From Strix aluco (lineage: Eukaryota; Chordata; Aves; Strigiformes; Strigidae): DNA of 64,000 nt. The notes under the pieces are model-generated. The model was not told where the DNA came from. It made no database searches and was given only the letters and a program-made list of their open reading frames with translations. The stretch lies in the NCBI RefSeq assembly GCF_031877795.1, contig NC_133943.1, positions 7,805,001-7,869,000 of the forward strand. Reading direction: 5' to 3'. Shown piece by piece: positions 43,627 to 57,216 of the stretch (the stretch's first letter is position 1; each line of letters opens with the position of its first letter). A program made the position numbers and the translations under genes.

Positions 43627-43824
43627 TCAGACGCGGCCCCGGGGGTTGTGCTCGGGCAGCGGGTGCCTGGCAGGGGGCTGCTGCAGCAGGGAGGCGAGGA
43701 TGCGCTGCAGCTGCGTGAGGCGGGCACGCAGGGAGGTGGTGGAGAAGAGGTTCAGCTGGTAGGACGGCTCAAGGGGCAGGATGGAGATGAGCCACCAGCA
43801 CCATGTCGGGCCATCTGCCGAAGC
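43627..43824 (-). CDS. LONRF exon 12 (last): C-terminus of LON domain and stop
   Basis: Encodes residues 568-632 and TGA (43,627-43,629). It starts [20 protein letters not shown]; the GPxWCWW motif followed by a hydrophobic strand is a LONRF hallmark. The acceptor is CCCCTCCAG. The tail ends NPRGRV. Confidence 0.96.
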   Translation of the reverse strand, partial: ASADGPTWCWWLISILPLEPSYQLNLFSTTSLRARLTQLQRILASLLQQPPARHPLPEHNPRGRV

Positions 43825-55800: not shown

Positions 55801-57216
55801 GTGCATTTACACGGAAGGACGGGTGTGCAGGGTACGAGATGGATGCCTCGGGAGGTTGCATAAAGGCACCTGCTTTTGGTGCCAACACCAGGATCGGGCA
55901 GCCCGCTCAGCCCTTGGTTCCAGGCATACCCTGGACCTCTGGCACTTGTTTCGCAGCAGGCGATGAATAAGTGTCTGCGCCGCGGGAGGAGAGCTGACTG
56001 CTGTCATAGAAACGCCAGTGGAGAAAGTACCTTATGCCTCTGCCGTCCCAACCCCCTGCTCCAGACACATTGTATAACCCCTTTTATTTAAGCATTACTC
56101 TACAAGAAATCCACTTACACATTAAAGCAGATCAACCCGTCTGGGCCCGATCCTGACCCTGCAGGCAAACGTCTCGCCAGAGCCAGTTGCAAAAGGGGGC
56201 TGAGGGGTGCGGGGGGGGCACTGCCCCGCACCATGGGGCTGGCCCAGGAGCCTGGCCAAGGCTGTGTCCTCACCAGGCTCTGAGGGTGAGGACGTGTCTG
56301 TCCGGGACTGGAAAAGTCCCAACCACTTTACATAATGGCCACCCCCCCGGGCAGAACTCTTCCTCTGACCCTGAAATATTGCCGGGTGGCAAGATGCAAG
56401 AAGCTGTTTGCTGCTCTTTCCTCCCCAGCCTCTTGCTAAGGCCAGACGCATGTGGCCGATGGGATGCAGGCTGTGTGTCCTGCCCTGCCCGTGGCCCTGG
56501 CAGCCAGGATGAGCAGCGGGGGCTTGCCCTGCCACCCACCCCGTCCCATCACCCCGGGACACCTGCGGACATGGGAGAAATGCCCAGCAGCTGGATCCCC
56601 CCTGCCCATCCCCACCAGCACTGCCTTTCCAACACTTCCAGCTTCCCAGGGCTCCCAGCTCTGGACTGTGCAGGCCCAGAGGGCACTTCAGTGCTGGGAC
56701 AAAGTGACCCACGTTGGCACCCAACAGCCCAGCCTGCACACCCTCATGCCAGCTGCAGGGCTGGCCCCTCGCACCCAGCACCCCCCAAGCCGCCCCGCCA
56801 GCCCCTCGGGCCCGGTGGTGCTCACCCAGCTCGACCGCTTTCTGAGCCATCCTCAGCGCTTCCCGCGCGTCCCCACGGGTGACACGGTCCCGGACGTGTG
56901 CCACCAGCCAGGCCAGCCGGCTCTCCCGCTCCACGCATTTCTCCAGGAGGCCGCAGAGCACCACGTTGCACTTCGCCACCCCGACGCCCAACAGCTTCAG
57001 CCTCTCCTGGCACAGGGGGCAGCGGGAGGGCACGGCCCCCCCGAGGCACGGCTTGCAGAAAGAGTGACCGCAGGACACGGTCACCGGCTCCCAGAGGAGG
57101 AGGAGGCAGGAGGGGCAGCGCAGCATGTCCAAGCCCCCGCTCCCGGGGTCGAGGGGCTGCCGGACGGGGCTCCCCCCCCGGGGTGAGGAGGACGGGCTGG
57201 GGGGGCCGCGACTCAT
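43627..57216 (-). CDS. LONRF-family gene, complete, 12 exons: LON N-terminal domain and RING finger protein (632 aa)
   Basis: Joined exons give 1,899 nt: 632 codons' worth of protein plus stop, with all eleven junctions in frame at GT-AG sites. Domains in order: RING1 (C34, C37, C49, H51, C54, C57, C66, C69); the family motif [10 protein letters not shown] (84-93); TPR-like helices (about 100-211); a poorly conserved linker (212-325); RING2 (C327, C330, C342, H344, C347, C350, C361, C364); a LON substrate-binding domain (about 412-625). No Lon protease catalytic domain is present, as is usual for this family. Family members act as RING E3 ubiquitin ligases, and LONRF2 has been linked to removal of misfolded proteins in neurons. 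The LON domain most resembles LONRF3 to my eye. LONRF1-3 are about 750-775 residues. This protein lacks their helical segment before RING1, and its linker is short. Which paralog it is remains open, so no symbol is given. Confidence 0.95.
43825..44900 (-). other. LONRF intron 11
   Basis: 1,076 bp with standard GT-AG ends. AT-rich in its central part, with a T run near 44,394-44,404. No other gene seen. Confidence 0.9.
44901..45047 (-). CDS. LONRF exon 11: helical part of LON domain
   Basis: Encodes residues 519-567 (147 nt, phase 0 to 0), starting [10 protein letters not shown] and ending [11 protein letters not shown]. The GPxPEKxED segment matches the LONRF3-type sequence. Flanked by GCAG acceptor and GTAGTG donor. 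Confidence 0.95.
45137..45299 (-). CDS. LONRF exon 10: core strands of LON domain
   Basis: Encodes residues 464-518 (163 nt). It contains [29 protein letters not shown] and [13 protein letters not shown], the most conserved block of the LON substrate-binding domain in this family. The first codon is split with exon 9 (AG/T). The following intron is only 89 bp. Confidence 0.97.
45300..46211 (-). other. LONRF intron 9
   Basis: 912 bp. It holds a fragment (about 45,740-45,960) that looks like an interspersed repeat, starting GGAACATAAGGATGGCCATA. No other gene seen. Confidence 0.85.
45740..45960 (+). repeat. Ancient interspersed repeat fragment (copy A)
   Basis: GGAACATAAGGATGGCCATA then CTG, followed by CCCAATGTCCTCTCACAG, matches from memory a repeat common in sauropsids whose consensus runs AACATAAGAAxGGCCATACT, then CAGTATCCTGTCTCTGACAG. 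I cannot name the family with certainty. Confidence 0.4.
46212..46370 (-). CDS. LONRF exon 9: start of LON domain
   Basis: Encodes most of residues 411-464 (159 nt). It includes [30 protein letters not shown] and TGTRRFGMC, the diagnostic entry into the LON domain. Both boundary codons are split (AA/C and AG/T), and both restore family-typical residues. Confidence 0.97.
46746..46774. repeat. (CA)14 microsatellite beside the exon 8 donor
   Basis: Fourteen CA units on the + strand, so UG repeats in the LONRF pre-mRNA, starting about 20 nt inside intron 8. Length is likely polymorphic. Confidence 0.95.
46795..46916 (-). CDS. LONRF exon 8: linker between RING2 and LON domain
   Basis: Encodes residues 371-410 plus two bases. 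It begins [17 protein letters not shown] and ends in a charged helix [14 protein letters not shown]. The donor (CCAA/GTAAGC) is followed about 20 nt later by a (TG)14 run on the transcribed-RNA sense. Confidence 0.95.
46917..47560 (-). other. LONRF intron 7
   Basis: 644 bp. It holds a second fragment of the same interspersed repeat (about 47,110-47,180). No other gene seen. Confidence 0.85.
47110..47180 (+). repeat. Ancient interspersed repeat fragment (copy B)
   Basis: GGCCCATCCAATGCAGCATC followed by CTGTCTCTGACAGTG resembles the second half of the repeat called at 45,740-45,960. Short and diverged. Confidence 0.35.
47561..47675 (-). CDS. LONRF exon 7: RING2 core
   Basis: Encodes residues 332-370 (115 nt; first codon split CG/G). 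[20 protein letters not shown] followed by C354, C361 and C364 gives the C3HC4 ligands C342, H344, C347, C350, C361 and C364. The sequence is nearly identical to the second RING of other LONRF proteins. The donor is GAG/GTGGGG. Confidence 0.97.
47676..49329 (-). other. LONRF intron 6
   Basis: 1,654 bp, the second-largest intron of the gene. No recognisable exon, repeat or RNA gene. Confidence 0.8.
49330..49423 (-). CDS. LONRF exon 6: lead-in to RING2
   Basis: Encodes most of residues 301-332 (94 nt). It ends [10 protein letters not shown] plus CG, supplying the first two RING2 zinc ligands C327 and C330. The first codon is split with exon 5 (G/AT), and this confirms the exon 5 frame. Confidence 0.93.
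49660..49710 (+). repeat. MIR-like ancient SINE fragment
   Basis: Contains GGGAAACTGAGGCACTGGGA followed by GGTGAAGTGGCCTAAG, matching the MIR core order. Identified by eye. Confidence 0.45.
50203..50338 (-). CDS. LONRF exon 5: linker, low complexity
   Basis: Encodes residues 256-300 plus one base (136 nt), beginning [20 protein letters not shown]. No homology is evident. The call rests on an open frame, a TGTGCCTAG acceptor, a TAG/GTGAGT donor and phases that fit exons 4 and 6 exactly. Acidic, glycine-rich and probably disordered. It could be alternatively spliced, but skipping it would break frame. Confidence 0.75.
51067..51198 (-). CDS. LONRF exon 4: linker after the TPR region
   Basis: Encodes residues 212-255 (132 nt, phase 0 to 0), beginning [11 protein letters not shown] and ending SSTQAQ. 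The sequence is not conserved by eye. It is supported by a TCCTTGCAG acceptor, a CAG/GTAAGA donor and frame continuity. Skipping it would keep the frame. Confidence 0.8.
51969..52091 (-). CDS. LONRF exon 3: TPR repeat
   Basis: Encodes residues 171-211 (123 nt, phase 0 to 0). [20 protein letters not shown] then W, with L-T-L-S-P following, fits the TPR consensus (G8, A20, P32 type positions). The equivalent LONRF segment in paralogs ends in a similar basic helix. Confidence 0.93.
52753..52871 (-). CDS. LONRF exon 2: TPR repeat
   Basis: Encodes residues 131-170 (119 nt; first codon split G/AC). [20 protein letters not shown] then [10 protein letters not shown] is a clear TPR helix pair. The acceptor is TCTCTTTCCAG and the donor GAG/GTGAGC. 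Confidence 0.94.
52872..56825 (-). other. LONRF intron 1
   Basis: 3,954 bp, the largest intron. It holds a four-copy 43-bp tandem repeat (55,448-55,617) and a short poly(A) run near 54,942. No other exon is supported. Confidence 0.85.
55448..55617. repeat. 43-bp minisatellite, about four copies
   Basis: Units start at 55,448, 55,491, 55,534 and 55,577. They begin GGTTTAGGGGAGCTGCAGCT and differ by only a few substitutions (for example TTTTGGGG in unit 3 and GGGAAG in unit 4). The last unit is two bases short. Each unit holds CAGCTG immediately followed by TGATTGAC. Confidence 0.95.

Follow-up and report, generated by a model that had tools for sequence, protein, structure and literature searches.

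The DNA analysed here, a stretch of 64,000 nucleotides that we call the window, corresponds to C13:7805001-7869000 in the 1.41 Gb genome of Strix aluco (C13 and similar labels denote contigs). It contains a LONRF gene, named LONRF4 in what follows, on the minus strand from 57216 to 43627. Its 12 exons yield 1899 nt including the stop codon, or 632 amino acids, with 0 internal stops; AG acceptors and GT donors are present at 11/11 introns and the phases agree. The initial annotation had described twelve in-phase exons encoding RING1, TPRs, RING2 and a LON domain, and the splice sites, phases and Pfam matches bear this out. Exon 1 (56826-57216) carries the start codon at 57216, RING1 and the first TPR helices; a second in-frame methionine, 31 residues downstream and just ahead of RING1, is the usual start in most relatives examined. 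The TPRs continue through exons 2 (52753-52871) and 3 (51969-52091), and exons 4 (51067-51198) and 5 (50203-50338) encode a linker. Exon 5, the least obvious of the series, restores the phase and is backed by a near-identical stretch (DEEGELSDGRG...) in the Zosterops prediction P0001. RING2 starts in exon 6 (49330-49423, ECSLCIR) and continues in exon 7 (47561-47675), followed by the RING2-LON linker helix in exon 8 (46795-46916) and by the LON domain in exons 9 (46212-46370), 10 (45137-45299), 11 (44901-45047) and 12 (43627-43824), the last of which holds the end of the domain and the stop codon at 43627-43629. An extra exon near 46651 was considered and proved superfluous, since exons 8 and 9 already join in phase 2. 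Taken together, these results confirm that the gene is real and intact.

The 5' end of the gene is spanned by a CpG-rich stretch (57001-57500; GC 0.80, CpG observed/expected ratio 0.77 vs 0.24 for the whole window), which is probably its promoter. Intron 1 contains a minisatellite at 55446-55617, with 4.0 copies of a 43-base unit at 96% match. A scan of the window against Rfam at gathering scores gave 0 matches. At the other end of the window lies the 3' part of a glutamate-receptor gene on the plus strand, which we take to be GRIA1 from its ...ATGL tail. The exon of its fourth transmembrane segment (TM4) lies at 5232-5366 and its C-terminal coding exon at 7726-7890 (start approximate), ending in ...SLGATGL with the stop codon at 7888-7890. 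The two genes are convergent, in the tail-to-tail arrangement noted earlier, and 35,736 bp separate their stop codons. In the genome, LONRF4 is flanked by GRIA1 and a FAM114 gene.

The predicted protein has the architecture that defines the LONRF family, with two RINGs (33-70 and 326-364 in Pfam) flanking TPR matches within 106-201, and a C-terminal LON substrate-binding domain (416-611, E 8e-28). In a fold search, the gull relative resembled the Lon N domain over residues 411-626, and RING structures were absent among the 50 entries listed. Among the 31 rows of the clade that includes the window protein (see below), the eight-zinc-ligand pattern of RING2 and the following lysine are intact in 31/31, and both RINGs in 28/31. 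Two traits set this clade apart. The number of residues before RING1 has a median of 5 (range 5-37; the 28/31 rows with both RINGs matched), compared with medians of 109, 150 and 121 in LONRF1, LONRF2 and LONRF3, and by the absence of this long N-terminal extension the clade stands outside the three known subfamilies. In addition, the first cysteine pair of RING2 is followed by isoleucine rather than methionine in 28/31 rows.

We next consider the position of the gene within the family. The tree of the RING2-LON segment, which the initial annotation had proposed, comprises 82 rows and 309 columns (the window protein and 81 of 352 retrieved proteins, the rows being hand-picked) and is unrooted. 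It resolves four clades: LONRF4 with 31 rows (support 100/100), LONRF1 with 16 (100/90), LONRF2 with 18 (100/98) and LONRF3 with 17 (98/87). The lungfish row has a long branch and is weakly placed within the LONRF4 clade (91/43). A tree of the RING1-TPR segment (81 rows, P0121 omitted) recovers the identical four groups, each on one side of a branch, with Shimodaira-Hasegawa-like approximate likelihood ratio (SH-aLRT) values of 96, 98, 95 and 100 for LONRF1 to LONRF4; a composition warning was raised for 4 of its rows, 3 of them in the LONRF4 clade. Of two earlier trees, the first, of 60 rows, dropped 6 through a motif filter; the second restored those 6 and added one, and it excluded Rhinatrema P0091 for its long branch and Pangasianodon P0122 as a duplicated prediction. 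The unrooted shape is ((LONRF1, LONRF4), (LONRF2, LONRF3)), with support of 100/99, so that LONRF2 and LONRF3 pair with each other and the nearest paralog of LONRF4 in the sequence tree is LONRF1. The approximately unbiased (AU) test rejects the grouping of LONRF4 with LONRF3 (p 7.0e-5) as well as that with LONRF2 (p 6.4e-5).

The same genome contains all four genes at separate loci. With identities computed over aligned residues only, the locus at C4:31.829-31.844 Mb is 81.2% identical to budgerigar LONRF1 over 778 amino acids (best other family 56.8%), that at C2:66.152-66.184 Mb is 93.5% identical to pigeon LONRF2 over 231 (70.2%), that at C10:9.870-9.885 Mb is 93.9% identical to barn-owl LONRF3 over 475 (58.6%), and the window gene on C13 is 87.2% identical to gull 'LONRF1-like' over 359 (61.0%). 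Nesting inside the LONRF1, LONRF2 or LONRF3 clade as the only copy in the genome, which the initial annotation had named as contrary evidence, is thus not what was found. Nor is the gene a recent lineage-specific duplicate, as its clade extends to sturgeon and teleosts.

In the tree the clade takes in sturgeon, teleosts, lungfish, amphibians, turtles, squamates and birds. In a homolog search with the window protein (7995 candidates scored under length limits), the best 120 of 2326 matches were examined. The 111 named rows come from birds, turtles, squamates, frogs, salamanders, a caecilian, lungfish, sturgeon and teleosts, and the 9 unnamed ones adjoin galliform, turtle, salamander, frog, lungfish and cyprinid rows in a tree placing the 120 listed rows (5 of 120 skipped). 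No mammal is named among these best 120. The 6 mammalian rows in the tree (Neotoma, Heterocephalus, Pipistrellus, Monodelphis, Dugong and Sus) all fall within the LONRF1, LONRF2 and LONRF3 clades. Since the list reaches fish members at 618 bits, any annotated ortholog from a mammal that matched as well as those of fish should appear in it, given the limits of the search; sharks and coelacanth could fall below the cut. Mammals appear to have lost LONRF4, probably rather than merely lacking its annotation, and the loss suggested by the initial annotation is supported to that extent. Crocodilians, unlike birds and turtles, are likewise not named among the best 120 of 2326, which may reflect a second, independent loss.

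The neighbourhoods of the four loci bear on the origin of LONRF4, with AFF, SAP30 and FAM114 named as synteny tests before the results came in. Four AFF genes lie on C4, C10, C13 and C2, the same contigs as the four LONRF genes, the C2 copy about 114 kb from LONRF2. The chance of four random genes falling one per LONRF contig is ~8e-5 by length alone; this figure is an underestimate, as small bird chromosomes are gene-rich, and the AFF family was chosen with its human positions in view. The main exons of the four AFF genes group as ((C4,C13),(C10,C2)) in 100% of 200 bootstraps, mirroring the LONRF shape. FAM114 and SAP30 are each present close to the window gene on C13 and again on C4 (at 26.0 Mb and 41.6 Mb, respectively); on the latter contig LONRF1 lies at 31.83 Mb and AFF at 84.5 Mb. 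On C10, a glutamate-receptor gene that we take to be GRIA3 from its tail ...GYNVYGTESVKI, that of GluA3, ends at about 10.92 Mb, 1.04 Mb from LONRF3.

The initial annotation had derived the GRIA1-LONRF and GRIA3-LONRF3 pairs from one duplicated block. The linkage itself stands, and the AFF, FAM114 and SAP30 copies extend it; the sister relation of LONRF4 to LONRF3 that it seemed to imply does not, the closest paralog being LONRF1. The LONRF copies thus lie, as ohnologs do, in blocks with parallel duplicated families (AFF on four contigs, FAM114 and SAP30 on C13 and C4, GRIA1 and GRIA3 on C13 and C10), and the LONRF4 clade includes both ray-finned fish and tetrapods. Combined, the LONRF, AFF, FAM114, SAP30 and GRIA patterns fit two doublings, the first separating {C4, C13} from {C10, C2} and the second splitting each pair. 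An origin of LONRF4 in the early vertebrate doublings is therefore supported by synteny. Altogether, we consider it very likely that LONRF4 is a fourth LONRF paralog, which the two genome doublings of early vertebrates left as the ohnolog partner of LONRF1; mammals appear to have lost it.

Several points weigh against this interpretation. The tree includes vertebrate sequences other than cyclostomes and has no outgroup, and by itself permits a root on the LONRF4 branch, which would mean a duplication older than the doublings. In three protein homolog searches, the best 120 rows of each contained no invertebrate LONRF, and with a length-shifted query aimed at such an outgroup every named row among the matches listed is vertebrate. 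The missing N-terminal extension would equally fit an early split. The AFF quartet represents one exon per gene, with long branches, and linkage to LONRF1 on C4 is loose (5.8 Mb for FAM114, 9.8 Mb for SAP30 and 52.7 Mb for AFF). GRIA2 and GRIA4 were not found in the genome with TM4 exon queries from GRIA1 or GRIA3. The labels AFF1-4, FAM114A2 and SAP30L and the human gene order are assumed. The absence from mammals, finally, refers to the best 120 rows of a search in a protein collection rather than to an empty locus seen in mammalian DNA. As to the AMPA-receptor TM4 exon, its two close matches are those on C13 and C10, and GRIA2 and GRIA4 may have been missed through the candidate limit or assembly gaps.

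The foremost alternative is that LONRF4 is an older chordate duplicate which split off before the two doublings, with LONRF1, LONRF2 and LONRF3 alone arising from them. Besides the permitted root, it can draw on the two traits of LONRF4, which alone is without the N-terminal extension and has isoleucine for methionine in RING2. However, the contig that carries LONRF4 also carries one of the four AFF genes, it has FAM114 and SAP30 pairs in common with the LONRF1 contig, and the AFF quartet has the same topology as the LONRF genes, and we regard an early split as distinctly unlikely. Decay or pseudogenisation of the gene in birds is far less probable still. Faster evolution is indeed indicated by the terminal branches of birds, 0.008-0.13 in the LONRF4 clade vs 0.003-0.031 in LONRF1, but the frame is open, all splice sites and the zinc ligands of both RINGs are kept, and the protein shares 98% identity with an owl protein across 305 residues. 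Moreover, full-length coding sequences (P0034, P0049, P0072 and P0115) occur on contigs no longer than 3.3-3.6 kb, too short for unspliced genes of this size, from source 'lgn', which we take to denote transcript assemblies. Finally, a relocated bird ortholog of LONRF1, as the database names LONRF1, LONRF1-like, LONRF2-like and LONRF3-like might suggest, or of LONRF3, as the GRIA linkage might, can be discounted almost entirely, because separate LONRF1, LONRF2 and LONRF3 genes in the same genome already refute it, some species have a LONRF4 together with true LONRF1 or LONRF3 proteins (for example Heliangelus P0007, P0203 and P0202), and the gene forms its own fully supported clade, with its union with LONRF3 or LONRF2 rejected.

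A fourth LONRF paralog lost from mammals would have several consequences. LONRF4 appears to have been kept by birds, reptiles, amphibians and fishes and is filed in databases under the names of its sisters, and no description of a fourth family member was found in our searches of the open PubMed Central literature, including under 'lonrf4', nor a paper on LONRF-GRIA1 linkage by title or abstract start. The bird genome makes the origin of the gene readable, as its LONRF1 shares a contig with AFF, FAM114 and SAP30 copies; this link would be hidden by rearrangement in mammals, human LONRF1 lying at 8p, apart from those copies. Mouse models would be without one LONRF branch, and the mammalian loss would offer a natural knockout for comparison. 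If non-mammalian vertebrates have four LONRFs, data from fish, frog and chick under 'LONRF1' may mix two genes; they include a study of LONRF1 in the retina, whose animals we presume to have been chicks. That retina study (PMC11259283) exemplifies data that could concern either LONRF1 or LONRF4.

The confusion of names is evident in fishes. Proteins of the LONRF4 clade carry the names LONRF1, LONRF1-like, LONRF2-like and LONRF3-like across species; its teleost members are named LONRF1 or LONRF1-like, and teleost 'LONRF1' rows split between the LONRF1 and LONRF4 clades. The fish records 'LONRF1, like' (coelacanth P0213 and cod P0241), by contrast, fall within the LONRF1 clade. Judging from these names, the true LONRF1 of zebrafish is probably lonrf1l, and its LONRF4 ortholog is probably lonrf1, not lonrf1l as the initial annotation had suggested for testing. 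PMC3039656 describes two zebrafish paralogs, 'lonrf1 (1 of 2)' and '(2 of 2)', both light-induced, one of them with the most robust induction in the gene set. This pair is comparable to the teleost 'LONRF1' rows, none of them from zebrafish, in two clades of our tree. If one copy is LONRF4, this would be a first functional lead for the gene. A 2.39 kb segment comprising exon 1 of the owl gene and the 2 kb upstream of it contains a single E-box (58469) and no perfect D-box; with one mismatch allowed, TTAYGTAA has 5 matches, at 3 sites, vs ~2.1 expected from the window-wide rate, and TTATGCAA has 2 vs ~2.5 expected. These counts are not taken as support, and the promoter does not clearly point to control by light. 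It is only a speculative and rather unlikely proposition that one of the two light-induced zebrafish genes is LONRF4, which would act in non-mammalian vertebrates as a quality-control ligase primed by light and stress, and that mammals lost it with other light-response genes. If so, non-mammals would own a proteostasis arm triggered by visible light that mammals do not have.

On the basis of its domains, the product of LONRF4 is most likely a RING ubiquitin ligase working like LONRF2. RING2 would recruit a charged E2, and the LON substrate-binding domain, possibly with the TPRs, would hold misfolded or selected clients, which would then be ubiquitylated and degraded by the proteasome. A role of the TPRs as an Hsp70/Hsp90 clamp was considered and set aside, as the clamp lysine and asparagine do not appear conserved in a hand alignment with HOP residues.

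LONRF4 can be compared with the three isozymes, LONRF1-3, that a 2023 paper counts in the family (PMC10226518). With LONRF1, its closest relative, it shares the RING-TPR-RING-LON order; the two differ in the segment before RING1 (~109 vs ~5 residues) and after the first cysteine pair of RING2, where LONRF1 has methionine in 15/16 rows and LONRF4 isoleucine. LONRF3 also has this domain order, and each of the two is linked to a GRIA gene. With LONRF2, LONRF4 has the RING2 and LON domains in common and probably the mechanism too, LONRF2, which acts in neurons, being described in the same paper as a quality-control ubiquitin ligase for misfolded or damaged proteins (PMC10226518).

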